A DNA stretch of 14,260 bases. Source: Azonexus sp. (GTDB taxonomy: Bacteria; Pseudomonadota; Gammaproteobacteria; Burkholderiales; Rhodocyclaceae). The notes under the pieces were generated by a model, which searched no databases, was not told the origin of the DNA, and was given only the letters and a program-made list of their open reading frames with translations. Shown here piece by piece: positions 1-14,091 of the stretch (positions within the stretch are counted from its first letter, which is position 1; the number at the start of each line of letters is the position of its first letter). Location of the stretch: positions 1-14,260 of the forward strand of contig JAKLLI010000015.1 of NCBI GenBank assembly GCA_023150195.1, given 5' to 3'. The translations under genes and the position numbers were made by a program.

Positions 1-207
1 GGTGCCAACGCCGTCCGTCCCCGAAACCAGCACCGGCTCCTTGTAACGCTTGGGCACCTCGAAGAGCGCACCAAAACCGCCAATGCCGCCAAGCACGCCA
101 TCGCGCAGGGTCTTCTTGGCCAGCGGCTTGATACGATCAACAAGGGCATCGCCCGCATCGATATCGACGCCGGCATCACGGTAGGAGAGGGAAGTATTCT
201 GGGTCAT
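1..207 (-). CDS. purM: Phosphoribosylformylglycinamidine cyclo-ligase (AIR synthetase), 5' part only
   Basis: PurM makes 5-aminoimidazole ribonucleotide from FGAM with ATP in the fifth step of de novo purine synthesis, in the cytosol. Read on the minus strand from the ATG at 207-205, the first 69 codons give [20 protein letters not shown], later [13 protein letters not shown] and then [13 protein letters not shown] at the window edge. The [12 protein letters not shown] start, GGFG(A)L and the [13 protein letters not shown] nucleotide/metal motif are hallmarks of PurM. The gene runs off the left edge, so about four fifths of a usual protein of about 345 aa is missing. No strong Shine-Dalgarno precedes the ATG. 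It is divergent from creB, across a 151-bp gap. In many betaproteobacteria purM lies near hda; here creBCD and other genes sit between them. The identification is firm, and the start agrees with the family N-terminus. Confidence 0.95.
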
Positions 208-240
208 GATAGGCAAGGCCAAAAGGCTGAAAGACCCGCG

Positions 241-269
241 ATTTTACCCGAAACGCGGGCGCATCTTAA
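241..269 (-). promoter_or_regulatory. Predicted sigma70-type promoter of purM
   Basis: Read on the minus strand, the -35 is TTAAGA (269-264) and the -10 is TAAAAT (246-241), with a 17-nt spacer. Transcription would start near 234, giving a leader of about 27 nt before the purM ATG. A 6+6 bp inverted repeat (CCCGCG 235-240, CGCGGG 254-259) brackets the -10 and could be an operator. The promoter is inferred from sequence only. Confidence 0.5.
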
Positions 270-310
270 GTGCCGGTGCCAACAGCGAAAAATCCTGCGG
301 TCGACATGCC

Positions 311-332
311 TGCCGGACAATTTTTTCCGGCA
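311..332. repeat. Inverted repeat in the purM/creB intergenic region
   Basis: Seven-bp perfect arms, TGCCGGA (311-317) and TCCGGCA (326-332), flank an 8-nt T-rich spacer. It lies just upstream of the -10-like TATCAT at 343-348 and the creB start at 359, where a transcription factor could bind. It is not followed by a T-run, so it is not a typical terminator in the creB direction. Function unknown. Confidence 0.4.
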
Positions 333-342
333 TTCCCGGGCT

Positions 343-348
343 TATCAT
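343..348 (+). promoter_or_regulatory. Possible -10 element of creBC
   Basis: TATCAT matches five of six bases of the sigma70 -10 consensus and lies 11 nt before the creB ATG. If used, the transcript would start at about 355 and be almost leaderless, which would fit the absence of a Shine-Dalgarno. No convincing -35 is seen at 17 nt. Weak prediction. Confidence 0.3.
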
Positions 349-358
349 TGCCGCCATC

Positions 359-1033
359 ATGAATATCCTGATTGTTGACGACGAACCGGCCATCGCCGAT
401 ACGCTGCGCTACGCACTGCACGCCGAGGGCTTCACCACCGAATGCTGCTCGCTGGGCGGCGAGGCGCTGGCGCGGCTGCAGCAGGGCGGCATCGATTTCG
501 TTGTCCTCGATGTCGGCCTCCCCGACATCACCGGCTTCGACGTCTGCCGCGCGCTGCGCCGCAACTCCGACCTGCCGGTGCTGTTCCTCACCGCCCGTTC
601 CGACGAGGTCGACCGCATCGTCGGCCTCGAACTGGGCGGCGACGACTACGTCACCAAGCCGTTCAGCCCGCGCGAAGTCGCCTCACGGGTGCGCGCGATC
701 CTGCGCCGCCTGTACGCCAAGGGCGAATCTCGCGGTCAACCCGAAAAACCGGTGAAATTCGCTGTCGACCGCGATGGCCTGCGCATCGCCTACCACGGCC
801 ACTGGCTGGCGCTGACCCGCTACGAATACCTGCTACTGGCGCTGCTGCTCGAACGTCCGGGACGCATCCTTAGTCGCCCTCAGATCATGGCAGCGGTCTG
901 GCAGGACGACGGCGAAAGCCTGGAGCGCACGGTTGACACCCACATCAAGACGCTGCGCGGCAAGCTGCGCGCGGTGCGCGACGACGAGGTCATCCTCACC
1001 CATCGCGGCCTCGGCTACAGCCTGGCCGCCTGA
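359..1033 (+). CDS. creB: CreB-like response regulator, OmpR/PhoB class
   Basis: DNA-binding response regulator, phosphorylated by the adjacent CreC kinase. The 224-aa protein has a receiver domain at about residues 1-118 with the acidic pair D7/D8, phosphoacceptor D51 (in VLDVGLPD), T78 and K100. A winged-helix OmpR-type domain follows at about 132-222, ending THRGLGYSLAA. Length matches E. coli CreB (229 aa). I start it at the ATG at 359 because the protein then opens MNILIVDDEPAIADT, as the family does. The open frame extends back to 206, but the extra 51 codons are not receiver-like and cross the purM promoter. No Shine-Dalgarno is visible. The naming rests on similarity to CreB, the CreC-type partner, and creD downstream with an exact cre-tag. 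creC follows after 2 nt, so the two are surely co-transcribed. Confidence 0.9.
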   Translation: MNILIVDDEPAIADTLRYALHAEGFTTECCSLGGEALARLQQGGIDFVVLDVGLPDITGFDVCRALRRNSDLPVLFLTARSDEVDRIVGLELGGDDYVTKPFSPREVASRVRAILRRLYAKGESRGQPEKPVKFAVDRDGLRIAYHGHWLALTRYEYLLLALLLERPGRILSRPQIMAAVWQDDGESLERTVDTHIKTLRGKLRAVRDDEVILTHRGLGYSLAA

Positions 1034-1035
1034 GC

Positions 1036-2463
1036 ATGAACATCTCGGTCCGCCTCTTCTTCGGCTATTTCCTGGTGGTCGGGCTGGCCGCGTGGTTCGT
1101 GCTGTACACCTTCGTCAAGGAAAGCGAGCCGAGCATCCGCCAGGCCACCGAGGAAAGCCTGGTCGACAGCGCCAACCTGCTCGCCGAACTGGCCGCCGGC
1201 GAACTCGCCGCCGGGCGCATCAACGACGGCGCCTTCGCCAAAGCCGTCGCCGCCGCACTGCAGCGCCATCCGGGCGCGGAGATTTACGGCATCAGGAAGG
1301 ACAGCGTCGACCTGCGCATCACCCTCACCGACGCGCGCGGCACCGTCGTCTACGACTCGGCCGGGCAGGCGCTGGGCAAGGATTTTTCCAAATGGAACGA
1401 CGTCGCCCGCGTGCTGCGCGGCGAATACGGCGCCCGCCAGAGCCGCGTCAACCCGGACGACCCGAGCACCTCGGTCATGCACGTCGCCGCGCCGGTGCGC
1501 CGCGACGGCCAGTTGATCGGCGTCGTCTCGCTGGCCAAGCCGATGACCTCGATCGCCCCCTTCGTCGAACGCGCCACCCAACGCGTGCGCGCCTCCGGCC
1601 TGACGCTGCTGCTGGCGACGGCGCTGATCGGCCTGATCTTCACCACCTGGCTGAGCTGGTCGATCCACCGCCTGCGTGACTACGCGCGCGCCGTCAGCGA
1701 AGGGCAGAAGGCCGAACCGCCGAACGGCGGCGGCCGGCAACTTTCCGAACTGGCGCAAGCGCTGGCGACGATGCGCGAAAAGCTCGAAGGCAAGCAGTAC
1801 GTCGAACGCTACGTGCAGAACCTGGCGCACGAAATGAAAAGCCCGCTGACGGCGGTGATCGGCGCCGCCGAAATCCTCGAAGACGAACTCCCGGCCGAAG
1901 ACCGCCGCCGCTTCGCCGCCAGCATCGGCGAACAGGCCGGGCGCCTGAGCGACATCATCGAACGCATGCTGCAACTCGCCCGCGTCGAACAACTGCAAGC
2001 CCCCGGCGCCAATATTGCGGTCGACCTCGCCGAACTGCTCAATGCCGCAGTCGCCGACCGCCAACTGGCCCTCGCCGCACGCCACCTGCACTGCGTCATC
2101 GACGCCGAACCGGGCATCACCCTCAACGGCGACGCCTTCCTGCTGCGCCAGGCCGTCCTCAACCTGCTCGACAACGCCATCGAGTTCTCGCCCGACGGCG
2201 GCGAAATTTCACTGATTTTGCGGTCGACCGTCGAAACCGCCGAAATCCGCATCCGCGACCACGGCGCCGGCGCCCCCGACTACGCCCTGGCGCAACTCTT
2301 CAACCGCTTCTACTCGCTGCCCCGCCCGGCGACGGGGAAGAAGAGCACGGGGTTGGGGCTGGCGCTGGTGCGGGAGGTAGCGAGGTTGCATGGTGGGGAG
2401 GCGGGGTTTGCGAATCACCCGGAGGGTGGGGGTGAGGCGCGGCTGACTTTGGCACTTGGCTGA
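1036..2463 (+). CDS. creC: CreC-like sensor histidine kinase
   Basis: Inner-membrane sensor kinase, predicted to autophosphorylate and pass phosphate to CreB. The 475-aa length is nearly that of E. coli CreC (474). Visible parts are TM1 at about residues 6-27, a periplasmic sensor domain at about 28-187, TM2 at about 190-211, a HAMP-like linker, and the H-box LAHEMKSPLTAVIGAAEIL with H265. These are followed by the N-box around N380 (LLDNAIEFSP), then the RDHGAGAP and TGLGLALV ATP-lid boxes near the C-terminus. The H-box closely resembles CreC (THELKSPLAAIRGAAE, from memory). The ATG lies 2 nt after the creB stop, with no clear Shine-Dalgarno, which suggests translational coupling. In E. coli creD follows directly; here about 1.5 kb with a RhuM-family gene intervenes. 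The signal it senses cannot be read from sequence. Confidence 0.92.
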   Translation: MNISVRLFFGYFLVVGLAAWFVLYTFVKESEPSIRQATEESLVDSANLLAELAAGELAAGRINDGAFAKAVAAALQRHPGAEIYGIRKDSVDLRITLTDARGTVVYDSAGQALGKDFSKWNDVARVLRGEYGARQSRVNPDDPSTSVMHVAAPVRRDGQLIGVVSLAKPMTSIAPFVERATQRVRASGLTLLLATALIGLIFTTWLSWSIHRLRDYARAVSEGQKAEPPNGGGRQLSELAQALATMREKLEGKQYVERYVQNLAHEMKSPLTAVIGAAEILEDELPAEDRRRFAASIGEQAGRLSDIIERMLQLARVEQLQAPGANIAVDLAELLNAAVADRQLALAARHLHCVIDAEPGITLNGDAFLLRQAVLNLLDNAIEFSPDGGEISLILRSTVETAEIRIRDHGAGAPDYALAQLFNRFYSLPRPATGKKSTGLGLALVREVARLHGGEAGFANHPEGGGEARLTLALG

Positions 2464-2802
2464 CGGTCAAATCGGAATGCTTCGCAGCGCCAAATTAAAT
2501 AGGCCAAAAGCACGCAGTACAAAGGCATGATCTTCCGGGAGATAATCACGCCTTCGCTCCCTCGTTCCTTGTCAGAAAAATAATGCCTTCCTACCAACAA
2601 AGCACGCTCTGGAAAACAGCCTTTCCCGAAGGTTGCACTGAATACGCTGCCCAACGCGAGCGCCTTACCGAAGCCTACGAACGCTTACACGAACGGGGCA
2701 ACGCCAGGAACTGAGAATTGAACGGTTTTGCGAAATTTATACTCGCCAATCAATCCGATGCTGACGCAACCCAAGCTAACCTCTCAAAAAATGCCCTCCT
2801 AA
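2464..2802. other. AT-richer intergenic stretch between creC and the RhuM gene
   Basis: These 339 bp are visibly richer in A/T than the flanking genes and contain no long convincing gene. They hold a plus-strand 43-codon ORF (2583-2714, listed separately) and, before it, a short frame ending MIFREIITPSLPRSLSEK whose TAA overlaps the next ATG. A minus-strand frame at 2415-2654 runs into the antisense of creC and does not look like a protein. No terminator with a stem and T-run was found after creC. The stretch looks like decayed or imported DNA brought in with the RhuM gene. Confidence 0.5.
2583..2714 (+). pseudogene. Small ORF, possible N-terminal remnant of a larger gene
   Basis: A 43-codon frame begins MPSYQQSTLWKTAFPEG and continues with a charged, helix-like stretch (AAQRERLTEAYERLHERGN) before TGA at 2712-2714. 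The residue pattern looks like real protein rather than random translation. Its ATG overlaps the TAA of a short upstream frame (TAATG at 2581-2585). No Shine-Dalgarno is evident. I do not recognise a family with certainty. It may be the surviving start of an accessory gene degraded next to rhuM, or a genuine small protein. It is not needed by either neighbour. Confidence 0.35.
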
Positions 2803-3816
2803 ATGCCCGAACTCATCCTTTACACCACCGAAGACGGCCAGAGCAGCATCAAGCTGCGCGCTGAGGACGGCACGGTCTGGCTGTCGCAGCAGGAGATGGC
2901 CGAGTTGTTCGCGACCAGCATTCCGAACATCAACCAGCATGTGCGCAAGATTCTGGCCGAGGGCGAGCAGACCGAAGCAACTATTAAGTCCTGCTTAATA
3001 GTTCAAGACGAAGGCAGCAGAAGCGTCCGGCGCAAAACCATGGTGTACAGCCTGCCGCTGATCCTGGCCGTCGGTTACCGGGTACGCTCGGCGCGTGGCA
3101 CGCAGTTCCGGCAGTGGGCGACGCGGCATCTGAACGAATTCCTGGTCAAGGGCTTCGTCATGGACGACGCGCGGCTGAAGGACCCGGCCGGCTGGGATTA
3201 TTTCGACCAACTGCTGGCCCGCATCCGCGACATCCGGAGTTCGGAAAAGCGCTTCTACCAGAAGGTGCGCGACATTTACGCAACGGCGCTCGATTACGAC
3301 GGCAAGAGCGAGGCGGCGCAGCTGTTCTTCAAAAAAGTACAGAACAAGATGCTGTGGGCAATCACCGGCCAGACGGCGGCCGAGTTGATTGCCGCTCGCG
3401 CCGATGTCGGAGCGCCGAACATGGGATTGACCACCTGGGCCGGCACGCAGGTTCGTCAGAAGGATGTGACGATTGCCAAGAATTACCTGAACGCCGAGGA
3501 AATTGAAGAGTTGAACCGCATCGTCACCATGTATCTGGAATTTGCAGAAGACCAGGCGCGCCGCCGCAAGACGATGACCATGGCCGATTGGGCTGACCGG
3601 CTCGACGCCTTCCTGAATTTCAACGAACGAGACGTACTGACGCATGCCGGCAAACTGCGCGCCGAAGTCGCGGAAAAGCTGGCACTGGAGCGCTACACGG
3701 CTTTTGATAGCGCGCGCCGGCAACACACCGCAGAGCTCGCTGATGCCGAAGATCTGGCAGCACTTGAAGTGTTGCAAAAAACAAGACCAATCGATCCGGG
3801 GTCGGATCAGACGTAA
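2803..3816 (+). CDS. RhuM-family (virulence RhuM) protein
   Basis: A 337-aa protein of the RhuM family, first named from a Salmonella pathogenicity island and common in accessory loci, often beside restriction-modification genes. Its molecular role is not firmly known. Recognisable family segments are the N-terminal VWLSQQEMAELF and INQHVRKIL (helix-turn-helix-like, about residues 25-50), then RRKTMVYSLPLILAVGYRV, FRQWATRHLNEFLVKGF and the C-terminal MTMADWADRLDAFL and AEVAEKLALERY blocks. The set looks complete and unbroken. ATG 2803 is preceded directly by an in-frame TAA, so it cannot start earlier. The bases before it contain CCTCCT rather than a Shine-Dalgarno, so translation may be weak or coupled. 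It lies between creC and creD in the same direction, probably as a later insertion, because neither Cre product needs it. Confidence 0.85.
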   Translation: MPELILYTTEDGQSSIKLRAEDGTVWLSQQEMAELFATSIPNINQHVRKILAEGEQTEATIKSCLIVQDEGSRSVRRKTMVYSLPLILAVGYRVRSARGTQFRQWATRHLNEFLVKGFVMDDARLKDPAGWDYFDQLLARIRDIRSSEKRFYQKVRDIYATALDYDGKSEAAQLFFKKVQNKMLWAITGQTAAELIAARADVGAPNMGLTTWAGTQVRQKDVTIAKNYLNAEEIEELNRIVTMYLEFAEDQARRRKTMTMADWADRLDAFLNFNERDVLTHAGKLRAEVAEKLALERYTAFDSARRQHTAELADAEDLAALEVLQKTRPIDPGSDQT

Positions 3817-3822
3817 CAACCG

Positions 3823-3942
3823 TCAGGCGCTACCGCCCCAAAGCGGACCAGACTTAGCGTCCTTACGTTCCAGCACTACGAACGTATCGGACTGATCGCG
3901 CCGCTTGCCCGCAAACTTCACCCCCACTTCACAAACCCTCAT
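3823..3942 (-). CDS. Possible small ORF antisense to the creD upstream region
   Basis: On the minus strand a 39-codon frame from the ATG at 3942 (or 44 codons from a GTG at 3957) reads MRVCEVGVKFAGKRRDQSDT, continues FVVLERKDAKSGPLWGG and stops at 3825-3823. It has a hydrophilic, protein-like pattern but no recognised family and no Shine-Dalgarno that I can defend. It covers the cre-tag and the creD promoter region, so it may be chance. It could also be a dispersed repeat that happens to read as protein. Low confidence. Confidence 0.2.
   Translation of the reverse strand: MRVCEVGVKFAGKRRDQSDTFVVLERKDAKSGPLWGGSA
3864..3886. repeat. Inverted repeat between rhuM and creD
   Basis: Perfect 7-bp arms TACGTTC (3864-3870) and GAACGTA (3880-3886) with a 9-nt spacer. 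No T-run follows on either side, so it is not a classic intrinsic terminator. It lies 31 bp upstream of the cre-tag and could be a protein-binding site, or a weak terminator separating rhuM from creD. Function unknown. Confidence 0.4.
3917..3932 (+). promoter_or_regulatory. cre-tag: predicted CreB binding site of the creD operon
   Basis: TTCACCCCCACTTCAC is an exact match to the cre/blr-tag TTCAC-N6-TTCAC, the direct repeat bound by phosphorylated CreB (BlrA in Aeromonas). It ends 67 nt before the creD ATG, a position suited to activation. Reading the window for TTCAC and GTGAA on both strands, I found no other copy with the right 11-bp phase, including upstream of creB. The match is seen directly; binding is inferred from the family. 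Confidence 0.85.
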
Positions 3943-3999
3943 CACCACCTCACTCACCCCGTCCAGACTCGCTCCCGTCATTCAACCAGGGAGCTCATC

Positions 4000-5316
4000 A
4001 TGGACAGGAAACTGCTTTACAAGATCGTCGCCATCGTCACGATGGCGATCCTTTTGCTGATACCGCTGGCGCTGATCGAGGGGCAGATTCGCGACCGCAG
4101 TCAGCGGCAGCATGAGGTGCAGCAGAACATTGCCGAGAGTTCGGCCGGAGCGCAGACGCTGATCGGGCCGATCGTTGTGCTGCGCTACCGCGAGCGCCTG
4201 CGCGAGACGCGGGTAGCGCCGGAGACCGGCAAGGTCACCGAGAGCACGCGGGTGGTCGAGCATCGGCGGCTGGTGGCACCGGAGTCGCTGGAGATTGATG
4301 GCGGCGTGAAGGTCGAGACGCGCCAGCGCGGCATCTACCAGGCGCGGCTGTTCCACCTCGACAGCCAGATCGCCGGCCGCTTCCGCTTCGACGCGCCGAC
4401 GCACAGCGGCAATGCCGAACTGCTCGATCTGCAGGCAACGCTGGTCGTCGGGCTGTCCGATCCGCGCGGCGTGGCCAGCGACCCGGAGGTGACGATCAAC
4501 GGCCAGCGCCACCGTTTCGCCAGCGGCAAGGTCGATCCGGAAATCATGCCTTTGCAGCCGTTGACCGTAGCACTCGGGGGCATCGAGGCGGGCAAGCCCT
4601 GCGATTTCACGGTGGCCTTTCCGCTGCACCTGACCGGCACCACGCGCCTGGCCATCGCGCCAGTGGGCGAGAGCAACCGCATCGCGCTGAAGTCGGACTG
4701 GCCACATCCGAATTTTGGTGGCCGCTTCCTGCCACGCGAACGCAGCATCGGCGGCAACGGCTTTGACGCCCACTGGGAGATTTCTCACCTCGCCCGCAAT
4801 TTCGACAACACGCTGAACCCGAACAGCGGCGAGGCGCTGTCCATCGAGTTCATCCATCCGGTTAACGTCTATCTGCAGTCGGAACGCGCGGTGAAGTACG
4901 GCGTGCTGTTCATCACGCTGACCTTCGCCGGCTTCTTCCTCACTGAAATCCTGCGCCGCGCGCCAATCCATCCGCTGCAATACCTGCTGGTCGGGCTGGC
5001 GCTGGCGATCTTCTTCCTGCTGCTGATCGCCTTCTCCGAGCACATGCCCTTCGCCACCGCCTACGGCCTGTCGGCGGCGGCCTGCATCGTGCTGATCGGC
5101 TGGTACCTGGCCGGCGCACTCGGCGGCTGGCGCCAGGGCGCGGCCTTCGGCGCCGGGCTGAGCGGGCTTTACGGCGTGTTGTTCGGGGTGCTGCGTTCGG
5201 AAGACAACGCGCTCCTGATGGGCAGCCTGCTGCTCTTCGCGGCGCTCGGCGCGACCATGCTGGCGACCCGCCGCCTCGACTGGTACGGCCTCGGCCGCAA
5301 GGCGGAGGACGCCTGA
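4000..5316 (+). CDS. creD: CreD inner-membrane protein
   Basis: CreD is an inner-membrane protein of unknown biochemical activity and the best-known target of CreBC. Its loss or overproduction alters envelope-stress and beta-lactam phenotypes in some species. The 438 aa are close to E. coli CreD (450). Visible are one N-terminal TM (about residues 9-27) and a large soluble, probably periplasmic, domain (about 30-295) opening with the family-like GAQTLIGPIVVLRY. A C-terminal cluster of about five TMs follows (about 300-318, 328-346, 352-372, 380-397, 403-421). A good Shine-Dalgarno, AGGGAG (3988-3993), lies 6 nt before the ATG. An exact cre-tag is upstream. The TGA overlaps the ATG of the next gene (TGATG), which indicates an operon with the GH3 enzyme. 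Confidence 0.93.
   Translation: MDRKLLYKIVAIVTMAILLLIPLALIEGQIRDRSQRQHEVQQNIAESSAGAQTLIGPIVVLRYRERLRETRVAPETGKVTESTRVVEHRRLVAPESLEIDGGVKVETRQRGIYQARLFHLDSQIAGRFRFDAPTHSGNAELLDLQATLVVGLSDPRGVASDPEVTINGQRHRFASGKVDPEIMPLQPLTVALGGIEAGKPCDFTVAFPLHLTGTTRLAIAPVGESNRIALKSDWPHPNFGGRFLPRERSIGGNGFDAHWEISHLARNFDNTLNPNSGEALSIEFIHPVNVYLQSERAVKYGVLFITLTFAGFFLTEILRRAPIHPLQYLLVGLALAIFFLLLIAFSEHMPFATAYGLSAAACIVLIGWYLAGALGGWRQGAAFGAGLSGLYGVLFGVLRSEDNALLMGSLLLFAALGATMLATRRLDWYGLGRKAEDA
5304..5308 (+). promoter_or_regulatory. Ribosome binding site deciding the GH3 start
   Basis: GGAGG lies inside the end of creD, 7 nt before the ATG at 5316. It supports a start that includes the unusual hydrophobic N-terminus of the GH3 protein, rather than a later Met just before the catalytic domain. 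Confidence 0.7.
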
Positions 5317-6614
5317 TGCCGGCCGGCACCGCGTTCGGTCGCGGCGCAGCGACACCGGCGGCCAATCTGTGGCCGCTGGTGCTGCTGCCCTCGGCCTGGC
5401 ATTACCAGCACCCGCTGCTGTTCAGCCTGCGCCACGTCGAAAACATGTTGCTCTGGGGCTTGCCGCTGCTCGGGCTGCTCTGCTGGCGGCGGCTGCCGGG
5501 CCTCGCCTGGGTGATGCTGCTCGGCATTGGGTTGCTACTCGCCTGGCAGGCGGCCGACTACCGTTTGCAGCGTGAGGCAGTGCTCGCCGCCGGGCCGGCG
5601 ATGCGCGCGGTCGGCCAGCATTTCGTCGTCGGCTACACCGATGTCGACGAAGTCAGCGAACTGGCGGCCAAAGGGCTGATCGGCGGCATCTACGTCGGCC
5701 GGCGCAACGTGCGCGGACGCAGCCTGGACGAGGTGCGCGCCGAGATCGCCGGCCTGCAGGCGATGCGCGCACAGGTAGGGTTGCCGCCGCTAATCGTCGC
5801 CGCCGACCAGGAGGGCGGCCGGGTCAATCATCTGTCGCCGCTGCTCGAACGTCTGCCGCCGCTGGCCGGCGTCGCCGACCAGCCCGACCCCGGCATTGCC
5901 GCGCAGGCCTACGGCGCACGCCAGGGCGGTGCTCTGGCCGGGCTCGGCGTCACCCTCAACTTCGGCCCGGTGGTCGACCTGCGCCCAGCCGACCGGCCTG
6001 CCGGCGACATCTTCAGCGACATCCCGGCACGTGCCATCGGCAGCGATCCGGAAGGCGTCACCGAAGTCGCCGCCGGCTACCTCGACGGCCTCGCCGCCAG
6101 GGGCGTGCGGGGCACGCTGAAGCATTTTCCCGGTCTGGGGCGGGTCGACCGTGACACGCACCTGCACCCGGCCCGGTTGAGCGAAACGCCCGCCGAACTG
6201 GCCGCCGACTGGCAGCCCTTCCGCAGCCTGGCCGGCCACGCCGGCAGCGCGCTGATGCTCGGCCACGTGACGCTGGAGGCGCTCGACCCCTACCGCGCCG
6301 CCTCGCACTCGCCGGCCGTCGTCCGGCTGTTGCGCAATGAATGGGGCTACGACGGCGTGCTGGTCACCGACGACCTGAACATGGGCGCGGTGTACAGCCA
6401 GGGCATCGGCAAGGTCGCCAGCGAGGCGCTGATTGCCGGCGTTGACCTGGTGCTGGTCAGCTACGATCCGCGCCAGTTCTACCGTGCCTTGTACTGCGCG
6501 GCGATTGCGCTTGAAAGCGGTCGCCTGTCGTCTGAAACCTTGGCCGCCAGTTCAAAACGGCTGGCGCGATTCAATGGCGTCGATAGCGCGCATCCAGTCC
6601 GCAGAAAATCGTGA
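5316..6614 (+). CDS. Membrane-anchored GH3 / NagZ-like beta-N-acetylhexosaminidase
   Basis: Glycoside hydrolase family 3, NagZ branch. NagZ removes GlcNAc from GlcNAc-anhydroMurNAc muropeptides during murein recycling. The catalytic domain covers about residues 95-420. Visible are VAADQEGGRVNHL, LNFGPVVDL, KHFPG (K269-G273), the general acid/base dyad as DTH (D280, H282), and LVTDDLNMGAV with probable nucleophile D352. Unlike the usual cytosolic NagZ of about 340 aa, this 432-aa protein begins with about 85 extra residues. These hold a moderately hydrophobic stretch (about 19-37) and two strongly hydrophobic ones (about 44-57 and 62-78) around a short CWRRLPG turn. By the positive-inside rule the Arg-rich turn would be cytoplasmic and the enzyme domain periplasmic; this is inference. 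The usual KHFPGHG is KHFPGLG here. Its start overlaps the creD stop, with a strong Shine-Dalgarno inside creD, so it should respond to CreB. Confidence 0.87.
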   Translation: MPAGTAFGRGAATPAANLWPLVLLPSAWHYQHPLLFSLRHVENMLLWGLPLLGLLCWRRLPGLAWVMLLGIGLLLAWQAADYRLQREAVLAAGPAMRAVGQHFVVGYTDVDEVSELAAKGLIGGIYVGRRNVRGRSLDEVRAEIAGLQAMRAQVGLPPLIVAADQEGGRVNHLSPLLERLPPLAGVADQPDPGIAAQAYGARQGGALAGLGVTLNFGPVVDLRPADRPAGDIFSDIPARAIGSDPEGVTEVAAGYLDGLAARGVRGTLKHFPGLGRVDRDTHLHPARLSETPAELAADWQPFRSLAGHAGSALMLGHVTLEALDPYRAASHSPAVVRLLRNEWGYDGVLVTDDLNMGAVYSQGIGKVASEALIAGVDLVLVSYDPRQFYRALYCAAIALESGRLSSETLAASSKRLARFNGVDSAHPVRRKS

Positions 6615-6678
6615 GCCTCAAATCCTGTGGTACGCCGTTGCAGTCTTTACCCCCGGTGCAGGCCAGCGCAGCAGCCTC

Positions 6679-6687
6679 TGCTAAAAT
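6679..6687 (+). promoter_or_regulatory. Predicted extended -10 promoter of hda
   Basis: TGCTAAAAT is an extended -10 (TGn plus TAAAAT) lying 27 nt before the GTG start of hda. A start near 6694 would give a 5' leader of about 21 nt. No good -35 is present at 16-18 nt, as expected for an extended -10 type. It suggests that hda does not depend on the creD operon for expression. The 100-bp gap after the GH3 gene shows no clear terminator. Confidence 0.5.
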
Positions 6688-6714
6688 TCGCGCTCCGATT
6701 TTTCGCCATCTACC

Positions 6715-7374
6715 GTGCGCCAGCTAATACTCGACCTTTTGCCTGAAACACCGCCGACGCTGGACAATTTTGTGGCCGGCGCGAATGCGGAAACCTTGGC
6801 CGCCTTGACAGGCTGGCTGGCGGGTCAGAACAGCACCACCGGGTTCTGCCTTTATGGAGAAGCGGGCTGTGGGCGCACTCACCTGTTGCAGGCGAGCGGC
6901 TTCACCCTGAGCGATGCCATCGCCGACCCCGACCTGAGCGACCTGCCCGCCGACATGCATCTCGCGGTCGACAATGTGGAGGCGCTGAGCGAGTCCGGAC
7001 AAATCGTCCTGTTCAATCATTTCAATCGGCTGAAAATGGCCGGCGGCCAATTGTTGACCGCAGCAGCGCAACCGCCGGCGCATCTGGCGCTTCGTGAAGA
7101 CCTGCGCACCCGGCTGGGCTACGGCCTGATCTACCGCCTGCATCCCTTAACCGATCACGAAAAGGCCGCCGCACTGGCAACGCAGGCACGCGAGCGGGCG
7201 CTGAAATTGCCGCCGGAAAGTATCGATTACCTGCTACGCCACGCCCCCCGCGACATGCGCTCGCTCTCTGCTTTCATCGTGGCGCTCGATCGCTACACCC
7301 TCGAACACAAACGCGCCGTGACCCTGCCGCTGCTGCGCAGCCTGCTCAACGACACCTTGCCGCTGGAAAACTGA
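6715..7374 (+). CDS. hda: DnaA regulatory inactivator Hda
   Basis: Hda is an AAA+ DnaA paralogue. With the DNA-loaded sliding clamp it stimulates ATP hydrolysis by DnaA and so prevents re-initiation. The 219 aa begin MRQLILDL, where QLILDL (residues 3-8) is a good clamp-binding motif. A Walker A-like segment, LYGEAGCGRTHLL (about 46-58), has Arg where ATPases usually have Lys, as in other Hda proteins. A Walker B-like HLAVDNVEAL and the C-terminal RDMRSLSAFIVALDRY (arginine-containing lid) follow. There is no DnaA domain IV, as expected. The start is GTG at 6715, chosen because the clamp motif must be kept; no Shine-Dalgarno is seen. The next gene starts 1 nt after the TGA, so they form an operon. 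Confidence 0.93.
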   Translation: MRQLILDLLPETPPTLDNFVAGANAETLAALTGWLAGQNSTTGFCLYGEAGCGRTHLLQASGFTLSDAIADPDLSDLPADMHLAVDNVEALSESGQIVLFNHFNRLKMAGGQLLTAAAQPPAHLALREDLRTRLGYGLIYRLHPLTDHEKAAALATQARERALKLPPESIDYLLRHAPRDMRSLSAFIVALDRYTLEHKRAVTLPLLRSLLNDTLPLEN

Positions 7375-7375
7375 C

Positions 7376-8044
7376 ATGAATCTCGCCCTTTTCGACCTCG
7401 ACAACACCCTGCTGGCTGGCGACTCCGATTTTGAATGGGCGCAGTTCCTCATTTCCCGGGGTGTCGTCGACCCCGTGCTTCAGGAGGCCAAAAACCAGCA
7501 GTTTTACGCGCAATACAAGGCGGGCACGCTGGATATCTACGAGTTTCTCGACTTCCAGCTGGCACCGCTGGCCCGCCACGACCGCACCGAACTGGATGCC
7601 TGGCACCTTGAATACATGGATCGCCACATTCGTCCGATCATGACCGCGCAGGCGCGCACCCTGGTCCTTGAGCACCTGGCCAGCGGCGATCTGTGCGCCA
7701 TCGTGACGGCGACCAACAGCTTCGTCACCGGGCCGATCGCCCGTGAATTCGGCATTCCCAACCTGATCGGCACCATTCCTGCGGTCGACGTGGCCACGGG
7801 CCGTTTTTCCGGAAAATCGACAGACACCCCCTCGTTTCAGGGCGGCAAAATCACCCGCGTCGAAAGCTGGCTGGCATCGCAGGGCCTGTGGTGGGGCGCC
7901 TTCGAGCAAAGCTATTTCTACAGCGACTCGCACAACGATTTGCCGCTGATGGAGAAGGTCACCCGACCCGTCGCCGTAGACCCGGATGAGACCCTGCGCG
8001 CCCACGCCAGCAAAATGGGCTGGAAAATCATCACTTTGCGGTAA
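7376..8044 (+). CDS. HAD superfamily subfamily IB phosphatase (SerB-like)
   Basis: Cytosolic phosphomonoesterase of the haloacid dehalogenase superfamily, subfamily IB. The exact substrate is not fixed by sequence; relatives are annotated as phosphoserine or histidinol-phosphate phosphatases. The 222 aa contain motif I FDLDNTL (nucleophile D7, acid D9), motif II at IVTATNS (T111), motif III Lys around K158 (GGKITRV), and motif IV SDSHNDLPL (D184, D188) for Mg2+. An alpha-helical cap lies between motifs I and II. Length is typical. The ATG follows the hda stop after 1 nt, so it should be translated with hda, an arrangement common in betaproteobacteria where it precedes pcnB. The catalytic residues look intact, so it is probably active. 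Confidence 0.85.
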   Translation: MNLALFDLDNTLLAGDSDFEWAQFLISRGVVDPVLQEAKNQQFYAQYKAGTLDIYEFLDFQLAPLARHDRTELDAWHLEYMDRHIRPIMTAQARTLVLEHLASGDLCAIVTATNSFVTGPIAREFGIPNLIGTIPAVDVATGRFSGKSTDTPSFQGGKITRVESWLASQGLWWGAFEQSYFYSDSHNDLPLMEKVTRPVAVDPDETLRAHASKMGWKIITLR

Positions 8045-8047
8045 AAT
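8042..8047 (+). promoter_or_regulatory. Possible -10 element for pcnB
   Basis: TAAAAT overlaps the TAA stop of the preceding gene and lies 45 nt before the pcnB GTG. No good -35 or TGn extension is visible, so this is weak. It could give pcnB-folK a promoter of its own in addition to read-through from hda. Confidence 0.3.
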
Positions 8048-8092
8048 CCGGGCTTTTCCGCTGCGCCCCGGCGCACTTTTGTACAGGCACTC

Positions 8093-9436
8093 GTGATCCG
8101 CAAACTCATTTCCCGCGTCTTCCGCAGCAAGAAGCCCAAAGCCGGCCACAGCGAACCGGCTGTGATTCCCGTTTCCAGTCATGGCATCACCCGAGACCGC
8201 CTCAGCAGCGGTAGCCGCCGGACGTGCGAAACGCTGCAAGCGGCCGGATTCAAAGCCTACGTCGTCGGTGGCGCGGTACGCGATCTGCTGATCGGCGCCG
8301 AGCCCAAGGATTTTGACGTGGCCACCGATGCCACGCCGGAAGAGGTCAAGCGTGCCTTCCGTCGCTCGCGCATCATTGGCCGCCGTTTTCAGATCGTGCA
8401 TGTGATGATGGGGCAGGAGGTGATCGAAACCACCACCTTCCGCGGTCAACTCGACGCCAATACCAAAAAGGACGAACACGGTCGCGTACTGCACGACAAC
8501 GTGTTCGGCACCCAGGCCGAGGATGCCGCGCGCCGCGATTTCACGGCCAATGCGCTGTATTACGATCCCGGCACGGAAACGATCATTGATTACCACCACG
8601 GCGTTGGCGATCTGAAAGCCCGCACCCTGCGCATGATCGGCGAGCCGCGCGCCCGCTATCGCGAAGACCCGGTGCGCATGCTGCGCGCCGTTCGTCTCGC
8701 CGCCAAACTGGGCTTGTCGATCGATCCCGAGGCCAAAAAGCCGATCCGCGACATGGCCGGCCTGCTGGAAAACGTCCCGGCGGCCCGACTCTTCGACGAA
8801 ATGCTCAAGCTACTGACTTCCGGCCATGCCGTGAAATGCATCACGCAATTACGCGACGAAGGCCTGCACCACGGCTTGCTGCCCCTGCTCGACGTCATTC
8901 TCGAACAGCCGATGGGCGAAAAATTTGTGATGTTGTCGCTGGCCAACACCGACGAGCGCATTCGCAAAGGCAAGGGCAGTTCGCCCGGTTTCCTGTTCGC
9001 CACCCTGCTCTGGCACGAAGTGCTGGCCCACTGGGACAAGATGAAAGCCAAGGGCGAAGCCAAAATTCCTGCGCTGTTTCAGGCCATGGACAACGTGCTG
9101 GATGTCCAGGGCGAAAAACTCGCGATCACGCGGCGCATCGCCGGCGACATCAAGGATATCTGGGCCTTGCAGCCGCGCTTCGAACAACGTGCCGGCAAGC
9201 GTCCCTATGCCTTGCTGGAACAACCCCGTTTCCGCGCCGGCTACGATTTTCTGGTGCTGCGCGCCCAGGCCGGGGAAATCGACATGGAAGTTGCCGACTG
9301 GTGGACGCGTTTCCAGCAGGCGGATGGCGAGCAACGGGCCACCTTGCTGATGCCGGAGCAGGCAGGCGATAAAAAGCGCCGTCGGCGCCGCAAAAAACCA
9401 GCGACAGCGACGGTCGACCGTGGCAACGCCGAATAA
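8093..9436 (+). CDS. pcnB: Poly(A) polymerase I
   Basis: PcnB adds poly(A) tails to RNA 3' ends, promoting decay, and belongs to the class II nucleotidyltransferases with CCA-adding enzymes. The 447 aa show the head motif YVVGGAVRDLLIG (G59, G60, R63, D64) followed by KDFDVATDATPEEV, whose D73 and D75 bind the catalytic metals. GRRFQIVHV, DFTANALYYDP and EDPVRMLRAVRLAAKLG (the arginine-rich nucleotide-recognition helix) follow. The C-terminus has a run of Arg/Lys (DKKRRRRRKKPA), as in PcnB and unlike CCA-adding enzymes. GTG 8093 is used as start; it gives the basic, serine-containing N-terminal extension expected for PcnB. The TAA is followed immediately by the ATG of folK with no gap, a usual pcnB-folK pair. 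Confidence 0.93.
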   Translation: MIRKLISRVFRSKKPKAGHSEPAVIPVSSHGITRDRLSSGSRRTCETLQAAGFKAYVVGGAVRDLLIGAEPKDFDVATDATPEEVKRAFRRSRIIGRRFQIVHVMMGQEVIETTTFRGQLDANTKKDEHGRVLHDNVFGTQAEDAARRDFTANALYYDPGTETIIDYHHGVGDLKARTLRMIGEPRARYREDPVRMLRAVRLAAKLGLSIDPEAKKPIRDMAGLLENVPAARLFDEMLKLLTSGHAVKCITQLRDEGLHHGLLPLLDVILEQPMGEKFVMLSLANTDERIRKGKGSSPGFLFATLLWHEVLAHWDKMKAKGEAKIPALFQAMDNVLDVQGEKLAITRRIAGDIKDIWALQPRFEQRAGKRPYALLEQPRFRAGYDFLVLRAQAGEIDMEVADWWTRFQQADGEQRATLLMPEQAGDKKRRRRRKKPATATVDRGNAE

Positions 9437-9913
9437 ATGAGCCAGGCCTTCATCGCGCTGGGCGCCAATCTGGGTGACCCGGCCGCAACGATTCGCGCCG
9501 CCTTCGAGGCACTGAACGAACTACCGGAAAGCCGGCTGCTGGCCTGCTCCGAACTCTATCGCACCGCACCGGTCGGCATGACCGGGCAACCCGAGTTCGT
9601 TAATGCCGCTGCGCGCATCGAAACCACGCTGGCGCCGGAGGCCCTGCTCGACGCACTGCTGGCCATCGAGCACCGCTTTGGTCGTATCCGCGCCGAACGC
9701 AACGGCCCCCGCACGCTGGATCTCGACATCCTGCTTTACGACGACTTGGTGATCGACACCCCGCGCCTGACCTTGCCCCATCCCCGCCTGCATCTGCGCG
9801 CCTTTGTCCTCTATCCGCTCGCCGACCTCGCCCCCGATCTGGCCTTGCCCGGACGCGGCACGCTGGCGGCGTGGTTGCCGGCGGTCGCCAATCAGGGCAT
9901 CTGCCCCCTGTAA
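9437..9913 (+). CDS. folK: HPPK: 6-hydroxymethyl-dihydropterin pyrophosphokinase
   Basis: FolK transfers pyrophosphate from ATP to 6-hydroxymethyl-7,8-dihydropterin, the step before dihydropteroate synthase in folate synthesis. The 158 aa are the usual single-domain length. Visible are AFIALGANLGDP at the N-terminus, SELYRTAPVG, QPEFVNAAARIET, the catalytic-loop Arg cluster (R83-R92) and RTLDLDILLYDD. The metal-binding D95 and D97 have the same numbers as in E. coli FolK. LPHPRLHLRAFVLYPLADLAP closes the conserved part. The ATG abuts the pcnB TAA, with no separate ribosome site, so translation is likely coupled. A 70-bp gap with its own promoter separates it from panB. Confidence 0.95.
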   Translation: MSQAFIALGANLGDPAATIRAAFEALNELPESRLLACSELYRTAPVGMTGQPEFVNAAARIETTLAPEALLDALLAIEHRFGRIRAERNGPRTLDLDILLYDDLVIDTPRLTLPHPRLHLRAFVLYPLADLAPDLALPGRGTLAAWLPAVANQGICPL

Positions 9914-9920
9914 TTAGCGC

Positions 9921-9951
9921 TTGACGCGCCTCCGGCGCCTCTGTGTATCCT
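9921..9951 (+). promoter_or_regulatory. Predicted promoter of panBC
   Basis: TTGACG (9921-9926) is a good -35. The best -10 is TATCCT (9946-9951), but the spacer of 19 nt is long. A 5-bp inverted repeat, GCGCC-TCC-GGCGC (9926-9938), fills part of the spacer. Transcription would begin about 25 nt before the panB ATG. Moderate to weak prediction. Confidence 0.4.
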
Positions 9952-9983
9952 AGTCACCCGTTTTTTCCCTACCCTCAACGCCC

Positions 9984-10802
9984 ATGTCCGCTCAAACGCT
10001 CACCCGCCGCCTGACCCAGGCCGATCTTGGCAAGCTGTACCAGGCCGGCGAAAAAGTCGTCATGTTCACCTGCTACGACGCCAGCTTCGCGCGCCTGCTC
10101 GACGGCGCCGGAGTAGACAGCATCCTGATCGGGGATTCGCTGGGCAATGTCATTCAGGGACATGACACCACCCTGCCGGTGACGGTCGCGGACATCGCCT
10201 ACCATACCGCCGCCGTCAAACGCGGCTCCGACCGGCCGTTCATCATTGCCGACATGCCTTTCGGCAGCTATCAGGAATCGCCGGAACAGGCCTTCCGCAA
10301 TGCCGCCACGCTGATGGCCGCCGGCGCCCAGATGGTCAAACTGGAAGGCGGCAAGGAGATGGCCCCCACCGTGGCCTTCCTCGTGCAGCGCGGCATTCCC
10401 GTTTGCGGCCATGTCGGGCTCACGCCGCAATCGGTACACGTCCTCGGCGGCTACAAGGTGCAAGGCAAGGGCGATGCCGCCGCACAGCGCCTGAAGGACG
10501 ATGCGCAAGCCCTGCAGGCCGCCGGGGCGACCATGATCGTGCTCGAAGCCATTCCGGCCACACTGGCCACGGAAGTGAGCGCTGCACTGGCCATCATCAC
10601 CATCGGCATCGGTGCCGGCAAGGACACCTCCGGGCAAGTGATGGTGCTGCACGACGCCTTCGACATCCCGCCGGGCAAGAAGGCCAAGTTTGTCAAAAAC
10701 TTCATGGAGGGCGCCAGCAGCATTCACGATGCGGCCTGCCGCGCCGTTGCCGCGGTCAAGTCCGGGGACTACCCCGGGCCGGAACACACCTACGCCGCCT
10801 GA
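9984..10802 (+). CDS. panB: 3-methyl-2-oxobutanoate hydroxymethyltransferase
   Basis: PanB converts 2-oxoisovalerate and methylene-tetrahydrofolate to ketopantoate, the first committed step of pantothenate synthesis; it acts as a cytosolic (beta/alpha)8 decamer. The 272 aa carry [66 protein letters not shown] and [11 protein letters not shown]. Expected ligands and catalytic residues are present: D51 and D90 (Mg2+), K119 and E121 (substrate), and E188 (general acid/base). All are offset 6-7 from the E. coli numbering by a slightly longer N-terminus. The ATG at 9984 gives the family length; no strong Shine-Dalgarno is seen. panC follows after 15 nt, so the two form an operon. PanB uses the same folate pool that the upstream folK supplies. 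Confidence 0.96.
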
Positions 10803-11642
<840 letters not shown>

Positions 11643-11670
11643 GGCGACAAAAATATACATAATTACAGCG

Positions 11671-11698
11671 TTGACACGAGTTTTATTGCCGTTACAAT
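11671..11698 (+). promoter_or_regulatory. Strong predicted sigma70 promoter of panD
   Basis: TTGACA (11671-11676), an exact -35 consensus, and TACAAT (11693-11698), five of six in the -10, are separated by 16 nt in an AT-rich stretch. Transcription should begin near 11705, about 27 nt before the panD start. This is the closest match to consensus in the window and implies that panD can be expressed separately from panBC. Confidence 0.75.
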
Positions 11699-11731
11699 GC
11701 GCTTCCCCCAACTTTCTGGATGAGTGAAACC

Positions 11732-12115
11732 ATGCAGAGAACCATGTTGAAGTCTAAGTTGCATCGCGTGACCGCAACCCACGCTGATCTGCATTACGAA
11801 GGTTCGTGCGCCATTGATGACGATCTGCTGGAAGCAGCCAACATCAAGGAATACGAGCAAATCGACATCTGGAACGTCAACAACGGCGAGCGTTTCACCA
11901 CCTATGCCATCCGCGCCGAGCGGGGTTCAGGCGTCATTTCGGTCAACGGCTCGGCCGCCCGTCGTGCCGCCCCCGGCGACATCCTGATCATCGCCACCTT
12001 CGCCGTGTATAACGAAGTGGAATTGGCCAAGCACGAGCCGGATCTGATCTACGTCGATTCACAGAATCGCATCGTCCGTCGCGGCCACAAGATTCCGGTT
12101 CAGGCCGCCGCCTGA
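11732..12115 (+). CDS. panD: Aspartate 1-decarboxylase precursor
   Basis: PanD decarboxylates L-aspartate to beta-alanine, the second substrate of PanC. It is made as a proenzyme that cleaves itself between G24 and S25, turning the serine into a pyruvoyl cofactor. I use the ATG at 11732 ([13 protein letters not shown]), not the in-frame ATG four codons earlier at 11720. With 11732 the cleavage site YEGSC puts Ser at residue 25, exactly as in E. coli, and the length is 127 aa against 126. K9, H11, Y22, R54-type and Y58-type active-site residues lie in matching context ([17 protein letters not shown]). It is followed by a strong terminator, so panD closes the pantothenate block. A PanZ-type maturation factor is not seen here. 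Confidence 0.94.
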
Positions 12116-12137
12116 TCCACGGCCTCTCCACCCGATG

Positions 12138-12168
12138 AAAACCCGCCTGTTGGCGGGTTTTTCTTTTT
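12138..12168 (+). terminator. Intrinsic terminator after panD
   Basis: A GC-rich stem, AACCCGCC (12140-12147) with GGCGGGTT (12152-12159) and a TGTT loop, is extended by A:T pairs and followed by TTTTTCTTTTT. It lies about 23 nt after the panD stop and should end transcription of the pan genes. Confidence 0.9.
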
Positions 12169-12177
12169 CGGTAGAAT
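12150..12177 (+). promoter_or_regulatory. Predicted promoter of the 170-aa hypothetical gene
   Basis: TAGAAT (12172-12177) is a good -10. TTGGCG (12150-12155), inside the loop and descending arm of the panD terminator, fits as a -35 with a 16-nt spacer. A good Shine-Dalgarno, GGAGAG (12207-12212), lies 4 nt before the downstream ATG. Terminator and promoter would thus share the same bases. Confidence 0.5.
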
Positions 12178-12216
12178 GCGGCTTCAAAAACAGCATCACC
12201 GACAACGGAGAGAGAC

Positions 12217-12729
12217 ATGGGCGTCGTATTCGCCAAAACTGCGCACGGGCAGGCGGAAATCAGCCAGCGCACCGGGGCGCTCACGCCACGTCAGCGGCGC
12301 GTCCTGATCATGGTCGATGGCAAGCGGACCGTCGACGAATTGCGCGAACTGCTTCAAGCCGATGATCTGCAGCACACGCTGGGCCTGCTTGAAGAAGAAG
12401 CCTACATCGAAGTCAGCGGACTCAAGGATGCTTCAGGCCAGCAGCAAATCGCCCCGGCAGCCCCCTTGCCTTCGATTACCGCATTCCGCCCTGCGCCCAG
12501 CCCGCCCAATCCCAAAGAACTGGAGATGGCGAGCAACTTCATCCAGAACTCGCTGAAGACTTTCTGCGGCCCCTTTGCCCACCTGCATATCGTCGAGGCC
12601 GCATTTTCGGCAAAAAGCCACGAAGCCCTGCGCCTGCAATTCGACCCCTGGTTCCACGTCATCGTGCAGACGCGCGAGGGGCGACGGCGCGCAGAAGAAC
12701 TGCGCGCCCAACTGCTCAAGGTCATTTAA
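12217..12729 (+). CDS. Conserved hypothetical protein, winged-helix-like N-terminus
   Basis: No function is assigned. The 170-aa cytosolic-looking protein has three parts. An N-terminal segment (about 1-68) has TPRQRRVLIMVDGKRTVDEL and a helical LLQADDLQHTLGLLEEEAYIE, which looks like a small winged-helix fold of the kind seen in bacterial response-type proteins. A Pro/Ala-rich linker covers about 75-102. A C-terminal alpha/beta part (about 103-170) is built around FCGPFAHLHIVEAAF and LQFDPWFHVIVQTREGRRRAEELRAQLL. There is no signal peptide, TM or Cys cluster. The Shine-Dalgarno GGAGAG and its own promoter-like sequence support the start. I believe similar proteins occur in other betaproteobacteria, but cannot confirm this. 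Its TAA overlaps the stop of the convergent NYN gene. Confidence 0.8.
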   Translation: MGVVFAKTAHGQAEISQRTGALTPRQRRVLIMVDGKRTVDELRELLQADDLQHTLGLLEEEAYIEVSGLKDASGQQQIAPAAPLPSITAFRPAPSPPNPKELEMASNFIQNSLKTFCGPFAHLHIVEAAFSAKSHEALRLQFDPWFHVIVQTREGRRRAEELRAQLLKVI

Positions 12730-14063
12730 CCGGCAGCAGCCTCGGTTTTGCGGGGTTTGCGTGGACGCGTGCTGCGTTTGGCCTTGCTCACGGCTGGCGC
12801 GCCCTCACCGGATGCCACCGCGGGTGTCTCGACGGGCTCGGCAACCGGCACCGGAGGAACAAGCGCCTCGACAGCGGACACCGCCGTGTCGACCGGCTTT
12901 TTGCGCGTCCGAGGACGACGCGCCGGTTTTTCCTCGGCAGCGGCCGCATCACTGGCCGGTGCGATGGGCGTATCGGGTGCCGCGACCACCACGGCCTCAT
13001 CCCCGAGATCGGCGGCTGGCACCGCCGCGGGCATCGCGGCAGCCTCCGTTGCTTTCGCCGTCGCGCGGTCTCGCCCTTCCTTGCGCGTACGGCGGCCTCC
13101 GCGACGCCGACTGCTGGTGGATTTATCGTCTTCCGCAGAGGCGGCTTCTGCCTCCGCAAGCACTTCGGCAAGCGGCTCGCCATCGGGCAAGGGGCTGGAT
13201 GCGGTGATTTCCGGCTCGCCAGCGGCCTCGGCGCCCTCCGCGACTTCAACCACCTTCGCAACAGCCCGCGTAACATAAGTGCCCGATTTTTCGTCACGCC
13301 CAACGGCCAGCAGGCCTCGCAAGGCCGCTTCTTCCAGCAAGCTGCCAAAGGTGCGGAAGCCATAATAGCTTTCGCTGAACCCCGGATTACGCCGCTTGAC
13401 CACTTCCTTGAGCACAGAGGCCCAGATACGCTCGGCTTCGCCACGGTCCGCCATGAGGTCGCCGAAGGTTGCGCTGACGATGTCCATCGCCTTGCGCTTG
13501 CGCTCTTCCATCTTTTCGCTGCGCTTGGCCTCTTCTTCCGGACTGCGCTTTTCACGTTCCCGGCGTTGCGCTCCTCGACCTGCTTCGCGATCCCGCACCA
13601 GATCATCGTAGTAGATGAATTCGTCGCAGTTGGTGACCAGCAGGTCGGAACAGGATTGCTTGACGCCCACGCCAATGACCCGCTTGGCGTTTTCACGCAA
13701 CTTGGAAACCAGGGGTGAAAAATCGGAATCGCCGGAAATGATCACGAAGGTATCGACATGCGACTTGGTGTAGCAAAGGTCCAGCGCATCCACCACCATG
13801 CGGATGTCAGCCGAATTCTTGCCGGACTGGCGCACATGGGGAATTTCAATCAATTCAAAGTTGGCTTCGTGCATCGCCGCCTTGAAACCCTTGTAGCGCT
13901 CCCAGTCGCAATAGGCTTTCTTGACCACAATGCTGCCCTTGGCGAGCAAACGCTCAAGCACCGGGCGGATATCAAACTTGTCGTACTGGGCATCGCGCAC
14001 ACCCAGCGCAATGTTCTCGAAGTCGCAAAACAGCGCCATGCTGGCGGTATCGTTGGCAGCCAT
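12726..14063 (-). CDS. NYN-domain nuclease-like protein with OST-HTH/LOTUS module
   Basis: Putative RNA-acting protein. The N-terminal NYN (PIN-like, LabA/DUF88) domain covers about residues 8-155. It has MALFCDFENIALG (D14), KNSADIRMVVDALDL (D86, D93), FVIISGDSDFSPLV (D112, D114) and SDLLVTNCDEFIYYDDL; these acidic residues form the usual metal-dependent ribonuclease site. A charged linker of about 30 residues rich in Arg/Glu follows (about 158-190). A segment at about 191-267 (DIVSATFGDLMADRG to YYGFRTFGSLLEEA and KSGTYVTRA) looks like the OST-HTH/LOTUS RNA-binding fold often fused to NYN. Residues about 270-445 are low-complexity, Ala/Glu/Pro-rich, with basic clusters RRRGGRRTRK, ARRPRTRKKP and TRPRKPRKT, probably disordered and nucleic-acid binding. 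AGAAGG lies 6 nt before the ATG. RNA cleavage is inferred from the family. Confidence 0.88.
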   Translation of the reverse strand: MAANDTASMALFCDFENIALGVRDAQYDKFDIRPVLERLLAKGSIVVKKAYCDWERYKGFKAAMHEANFELIEIPHVRQSGKNSADIRMVVDALDLCYTKSHVDTFVIISGDSDFSPLVSKLRENAKRVIGVGVKQSCSDLLVTNCDEFIYYDDLVRDREAGRGAQRREREKRSPEEEAKRSEKMEERKRKAMDIVSATFGDLMADRGEAERIWASVLKEVVKRRNPGFSESYYGFRTFGSLLEEAALRGLLAVGRDEKSGTYVTRAVAKVVEVAEGAEAAGEPEITASSPLPDGEPLAEVLAEAEAASAEDDKSTSSRRRGGRRTRKEGRDRATAKATEAAAMPAAVPAADLGDEAVVVAAPDTPIAPASDAAAAEEKPARRPRTRKKPVDTAVSAVEALVPPVPVAEPVETPAVASGEGAPAVSKAKRSTRPRKPRKTEAAAG

Positions 14064-14091
14064 GAAAAGCCTTCTCGTTGAGGAAGGCGGC

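Follow-up and report, generated by a model that had tools for sequence, protein, structure and literature searches.

A NagZ-like glycosidase gene with a predicted membrane anchor overlaps creD at the cre locus of an Azonexus genome

Gene Organization at the cre Locus

We analyzed a stretch of 14,260 nucleotides from Azonexus sp. (GCA_023150195.1, contig JAKLLI010000015.1, positions 1–14,260; hereafter, the window), in which the genes for the response regulator CreB and the sensor kinase CreC (CreBC) are followed by creD, and creD overlaps a gene for a NagZ-like protein of glycoside hydrolase family 3 (GH3). The genome containing the window is 77% complete and consists of 425 contigs. CreB, CreC, and CreD of the window all scored above the curated NCBI equivalog cut-offs, and creD is preceded by a perfect cre-tag, as in the known CreBC/CreD (BlrAB) regulon, from which the window differs in that a glycosidase gene overlaps creD. 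The features of the pair are as follows.

3917–3932, + strand: perfect cre-tag (TTCAC-N6-TTCAC), 67 bp ahead of the creD start
4000–5316, + strand: creD (PF06123, 465.6 bits; NCBIfam CreD equivalog NF008712, 490.9 bits, cut-off 275)
5304–5308, + strand: Shine-Dalgarno-like GGAGG within creD, 7 nt before the GH3 ATG
5314–5318, + strand: TGATG, in which the creD stop and the GH3 start overlap
5316–6614, + strand: GH3 gene, NagZ-like, predicted to be membrane-anchored, 432 aa (PF00933, 157.2 bits, cut-off 27)

An earlier note on this DNA had proposed that creD and the GH3 gene are made together under the cre-tag, and the perfect tag, the TGATG overlap, and the closely spaced GGAGG are all present in the sequence. 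The tag TTCACCCCCACTTCAC (3917–3932) was the only perfect cre-tag within the window, whereas ten more sites with two mismatches corresponded to chance level. It lies in the presumptive promoter region of the operon, where a CreB regulon member is expected to carry it. Two terminator-like matches were found between 3800 and 6800, both within creD and at chance level. Full-text literature searches, whose coverage excludes most subscription papers, turned up no description of a GH3 gene in a cre operon or regulon; the author of the earlier note likewise did not know the arrangement as described.

Conservation of the creD–GH3 Pair

To survey the family, 199 genomes were searched with the GH3 protein and for creD. 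The long GH3 type occurred in 18 of them (E-value of 1.8e-73 or better), and the best GH3 matches in the remaining genomes were at 1.6e-32 or weaker among the matches listed by E-value; the 12 weaker matches that we fetched all aligned as NagZ. creD was present in 36 of the 199 genomes (1e-10 or better). In 16 of the 18 carriers, the long GH3 gene immediately followed creD in the same orientation, so the pair is conserved in related genomes, whose lack of it the earlier note had named as grounds for abandoning its proposal. A search of 399 genomes of the order recovered the long type in seven, including two outside the family, one with the gene linked to creD (G538) and one with it unlinked (G334). 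Adding G551 and G538, both found in the order search, as well as two named loci (L003 and L004), brought the linked loci to 20; of these, 13 carried creB and/or creC (at least 150 bits in the same stretch) and seven had hda downstream. Comparison of the GH3 gene with that of L003 (Azonexus fungiphilus) gave dN of 0.090, dS of 0.277, and a dN/dS of ~0.32, values indicating purifying selection.

Beyond the order, a search of 369 genomes of the class returned 87 matches at 1e-40 or better, in which the window's own protein scored 719.8 bits and the other 86 scored 162.6 bits or less. Nineteen of these 86 were fetched; none had a creD match within the short flanks, and by eye they were either NagZ-type proteins or had a signal-peptide-like start. 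Four loci from other families of the class (L078, L080, L089, and L092) encoded GH3 N-acetylglucosaminidase-like proteins with N-termini resembling, by eye, signal peptides or lipoproteins, and their short flanks had no creD match. Paucibacter-type proteins (L006–L008; 33% identical) were considered as members of the same type and rejected, as they represent another GH3 type and no cre gene was matched at any of these loci; the L007 gene lies within what appears by eye from the open reading frames (ORFs) to be a cluster for the use of N-acetylglucosamine (GlcNAc).

The regulatory site and the gene junction were compared across the linked loci. All 20 had a perfect cre-tag no more than 300 bp ahead of creD, against an expectation of 0.015 from shuffled sequences, and its orientation followed the sense strand in all except L070, where it was on the opposite strand. 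Upstream of creD, the five linked loci L048–L052 carried two tandem cre-tags consisting of three TTCAC repeats in 11-bp phase, which suggests cooperative CreB sites. At the 15 linked loci with an assigned GH3 start, this start overlapped the creD stop in nine (as TGATG or ATGA/GTGA) and followed it by 1–9 nt in six. The GGAGG before the GH3 gene was the same in A. fungiphilus. This organization suggests that creD and the GH3 gene would be co-transcribed and activated by CreB. Other cre-tags of the window genome (C171, C260, and C277) had no clear promoter position, as judged by eye from ORFs.

Retention of the GH3 Gene without Intact creD

Two lineages that have lost creD or retain only a stub of it still carry the GH3 gene at the cre locus, an association with CreBC that goes beyond what the earlier note had claimed. 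In Rhodocyclales bacterium GT-UBC (L005), the order is creB, creC, a cre-tag with one mismatch, a 46-codon frame, and a full-length GH3 gene; the short frame matches the N-terminus of CreD (best tblastn E-value of 2e-8), and the GH3 gene overlaps its stop codon. In G197, a perfect cre-tag lies ~310 bp upstream of the GH3 gene and creB is nearby; this genome (95% complete) has no CreD match, and no creD remnant was detectable at the locus. A search for a creD remnant in L056 found none (best score of 19 bits). Separately, G018 carries a second, partial creD (cre-tag locus L103; C1:2021645–2021879; residues 358–433) with one in-frame stop, adjoining a cre-tag identical to that before its intact creD.

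Retention at the locus bears on one alternative, namely that the two genes are plain neighbors and that the GH3 gene stands behind creD by history, free of CreB control or a functional tie. In favor of it, creD has no neighboring GH3 gene in 20 of the 36 genomes that contain creD, and the GH3 label must change five times on the creD tree, which implies repeated loss or gain of the gene. However, linkage in 16 of 18 carriers, overlap or near-overlap in all 15 loci with an assigned start, and persistence after the loss of creD in two lineages make this alternative very unlikely.

The absence of an adjacent GH3 gene from these 20 genomes also weighs against joint production under CreB, as do several further points. 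Two of the 24 GH3 copies examined for linkage were unlinked (G122 and G334), with CreD on another contig. Four of six creD-alone loci likewise had the cre-tag (seven distinct loci were fetched and L076 was omitted, its contig ending near creD), indicating that the tag accompanies creD generally, with or without GH3. A search for sigma-70-like promoters between 3800 and 6800 of the window found none. At L005, creC (4224–5646) aligned as two pieces that overlap and lie in different frames, owing to a frameshift or a sequence error, and CreBC may therefore not work there. The G012 gene behind creD (L059) aligned over residues 191–420 only and contained an in-frame TGA, and this linked copy is either a truncated or broken gene or the result of an assembly error. 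Finally, in Stenotrophomonas maltophilia, creD is reported to be repressed rather than induced by CreBC and to lack co-transcription with a gene located 10 bp downstream of it (PMC4689548).

A NagZ-Like Enzyme Distinct from NagZ

The catalytic part of the GH3 protein comprises the following features.

5613–6575, + strand: GH3 catalytic domain, approximately residues 100–420 (PF00933 match over residues 101–418; structure 6k5j matches residues 97–417)
6120–6161, + strand: residues K269–H282, KHFPGLGRVDRDTH, N-acetylglucosaminidase motif with the Asp-His dyad (47-sequence alignment)
6366–6374, + strand: residues T351–D353 (TDDLNM), which we take to be the catalytic nucleophile position (invariant in 47 of 47 sequences; aligns with SDDLSM of NagZ)

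The best relatives of solved structure were GH3 beta-N-acetylglucosaminidases, including 6k5j, 4yyf, NagZ structures, and LpqI. An alignment of the window protein with 13 NagZ-type family sequences, of which one was partial, showed that it contains the Asp-His dyad motif KHFPGxG-x4-D(S/T)H as KHFPGLGRVDRDTH. Across 47 aligned sequences, K269, H270, and H282 were invariant and D280 nearly so, and DQEGG, R239, KHFPGL, and TDD (D352/D353) were invariant or nearly so. The motif, KHFPGLG-x4-DTH, fits the Asp-His dyad signature described for N-acetylglucosaminidases (PMC4974736).

The earlier note had called the protein a relative of NagZ; kinship within GH3 and a NagZ-type motif stood up, and identity with NagZ did not. 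On the NagZ equivalog model (PRK05337), the window protein scored 133.7 bits, below the cut-off of 207, and so did all 21 long-type copies (110.7–168.5 bits). A separate gene above the cut-off was present in 20 of the 21 carrier genomes, the exception being G077 (85% complete). When 23 long-type and 12 NagZ sequences were placed in one tree, the two types formed separate clades with support of 100/100. The separate clade and the scores below the cut-off indicate a NagZ-like paralogue rather than NagZ. Both have the GH3 domain, the KHFPG..D(S/T)H dyad, and the conserved active-site R and DD; they differ in KHFPGLG and DQEGGx(V/I) of the window type versus KHFPGHG and DHEGGRV of NagZ. NagZ is soluble and cytosolic with no extension, whereas the window type begins with 97 residues forming a hydrophobic, three-segment N-terminus. 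The window type resides at the cre locus, whereas the NagZ gene of the window genome follows, by eye, apparent pdxJ and acpS. A role for the GH3 protein as a substitute for missing NagZ or AmpG was rejected, because NagZ occurs in 20 of 21 carriers and an AmpG-model match in 18 of 18.

The low NagZ scores and the presence of 6k5j and 4zm6, which are solved GH3 N-acetylglucosaminidases other than NagZ, among the best relatives leave room for a different substrate. The protein could be a periplasmic N-acetylglucosaminidase that acts on a GlcNAc glycan other than peptidoglycan, such as an exopolysaccharide or chito-oligosaccharide, and that was co-opted into the CreB regulon. We regard this as unlikely, since its recurring partners, among neighbors not annotated systematically, are creD and (at 13 of 20 linked loci) creB/creC, which belong to a wall-damage system.

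Predicted N-Terminal Anchor and Membrane Side

5316–5606, + strand: N-terminal anchor, residues 1–97, with three predicted membrane helices (residues 11–24, 44–57, and 63–76)

The earlier note had described about 85 extra hydrophobic N-terminal residues; the extension measured ~97 residues ahead of the GH3 domain, and its three-segment character is conserved. We compared 121 sequences, comprising the window protein and the 120 matches listed out of 1375. A simple hydropathy scan gave three N-terminal hydrophobic segments in the window protein and in 106–117 of the 121 sequences, depending on the threshold. The N-terminal pattern AWHxKHPLL..LRHxET was kept in nearly all of them, which makes a soluble product starting at a later Met, the outcome that would have spoken against an anchor, unlikely. 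Between helices 2 and 3, in the loop predicted to be cytosolic, the protein P0036 carries an insertion with the end SRLRGND, which resembles a dispersed-repeat peptide.

The distribution of charges was then used to predict the side of the membrane. In the alignment, mean net charge was +3.2 for the N-terminus, +0.6 for loop 1, +3.2 for loop 2, and −0.3 for the segment following helix 3. In 120 of 121 sequences, the N-terminus and loop 2 together carried a higher net charge than loop 1 and the segment following helix 3 together. When Lys and Arg alone were counted over the same aligned segments, 95 sequences fitted this arrangement, 17 were equal, and 9 were reversed. The aligned-loop charges thus support a cytoplasmic N-terminus, three helices, and an enzyme domain in the periplasm. 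On these grounds, the GH3 domain probably lies on the periplasmic side, the face that the earlier note had raised as a possibility.

Placing the segments individually in each sequence, under three hydropathy thresholds, gave a less uniform picture: Lys and Arg counts predicted the outside for 63–70 sequences, the inside for 25–36, and a tie for 22–26 of 121. The window protein itself (3 vs. 4) leaned away from the periplasmic side, and sequences with four segments (13, 5, and 0 over the three thresholds) nearly all scored as inside. The counts of the window protein and of the 25–36 sequences predicted as inside, together with the AmpG-model match in 18 of 18 carriers, speak for a GH3 domain facing the cytosol, where it would be a tethered second NagZ acting on muropeptides that arrive via AmpG and boosting recycling under CreBC. 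The aligned-loop net charge points the other way, and a second cytosolic enzyme would be redundant in the 20 of 21 carriers that already have NagZ; we consider the cytosolic arrangement doubtful.

GH3 N-acetylglucosaminidases acting outside the cytosol are known from Bacillus subtilis (YbbD/NagZ), mycobacteria (LpqI), and Corynebacterium glutamicum (NagA2). YbbD and LpqI are secreted or lipid-anchored, whereas the window type has three membrane segments and resides at a cre locus; its three hydrophobic segments argue against a lipobox, as would be found in a lipoprotein of the YbbD/LpqI type. NagA2 has been described as a secreted or lipid-anchored GH3 N-acetylglucosaminidase (PMC4974736).

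CreBC Signals and a Possible Role of the GH3 Protein

Signals proposed for CreBC differ between organisms in the reports consulted. Periplasmic disaccharide-pentapeptide is said to activate BlrAB, the CreBC homologue of Aeromonas (PMC5574705; PMC6448482), whereas anhNAM-pentapeptide has been suggested as the CreC signal in Pseudomonas aeruginosa (PMC6890930), in which creD is up 25–60-fold in PBP4 mutants (PMC2654508); the role of CreD is obscure. CreBC has also been tied to beta-lactam responses in Aeromonas and Pseudomonas (PMC3660660; PMC2654508). From this tie and the resemblance to the NagZ family, the earlier note had reasoned that the GH3 protein makes a muropeptide that induces AmpC-type beta-lactamase. 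That rationale fared poorly. A class C beta-lactamase above the curated cut-off occurred in 1 of 18 carriers (a search covering this class of beta-lactamases) and had no match in the window genome at its 77% completeness. NagZ is present besides, and known AmpR ligands are cytosolic, whereas the GH3 domain probably is not. In P. aeruginosa, moreover, the effect of CreBC is reported not to run via ampC expression (PMC2654508). AmpC induction was therefore set aside as the purpose of the GH3 protein, and we consider it highly improbable.

We propose instead, with a probability of about 0.48, that CreB drives an inner-membrane, periplasm-facing GH3 beta-N-acetylglucosaminidase, a paralogue of NagZ, which is made with CreD and trims muropeptides. 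CreC/CreB would detect wall damage as periplasmic pentapeptide muropeptides accumulate after the loss of PBP4-type carboxypeptidase, and CreB would turn on CreD and the tethered glycosidase together. Next to the inner membrane, and either ahead of import by AmpG or in its place, the enzyme could then strip GlcNAc from GlcNAc-(anhydro)MurNAc-peptides; cleavage of such GlcNAc-anhMurNAc-peptides is suggested by family membership only, which tells against this step. The outcome would be an altered pool of fragments next to the CreC sensor. Because a periplasmic NagZ-like enzyme would make GlcNAc-free from GlcNAc-bearing fragments, the model has the CreC signal either ended or strengthened: if CreC senses disaccharide-pentapeptide, trimming would remove the signal and give negative feedback, and if it senses anhMurNAc-pentapeptide, trimming would produce the signal and give positive feedback. 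That the CreBC output operon holds a periplasmic glycosidase editing the very muropeptide sensed by CreC, with the ligand pool under feedback control, is a more tentative suggestion.

In these organisms, which also possess AmpG and cytosolic NagZ, the protein would be a NagZ relative tethered to the inner membrane and probably facing the periplasm. The conservation at the cre locus of a glycosidase that may interconvert such fragments points to the handling of wall fragments as a job of the operon. The GH3 gene also offers a genetic switch for identifying the CreC signal; if the proposal is true, whether the cre response is raised or lowered by loss of GH3 would tell which fragment CreC reads.

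Other Features of the Window

359–1033, + strand: creB, response regulator (NCBIfam NF008296, 338.1 bits, cut-off 273)
1036–2463, + strand: creC, sensor kinase (NCBIfam NF008312, 619.9 bits, cut-off 356)
2803–3816: RhuM-family gene (PF13310, 373 bits), located after creC and ahead of the cre-tag of creD
at 6715: hda, downstream of the GH3 gene

The sensor part of CreC gave Cache-domain matches below the cut-off. The RhuM-family gene (2803–3816) had no counterpart matched in the other cre loci compared, and its insertion in the window is therefore probably recent. The closest named relative found was Azonexus fungiphilus, with 94% identity in CreD and 89% in the GH3 protein; strain DSM 23841 carries the pair (L003) on a retrieved stretch that does not include creBC. 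The matches listed also contained a protein of this type from Ferribacterium limneticum. Farther downstream, at 12726–14063 on the − strand, the window encodes an NYN-domain protein (PF01936) whose long tail is of low complexity and enriched in Ala, Lys, and Arg.

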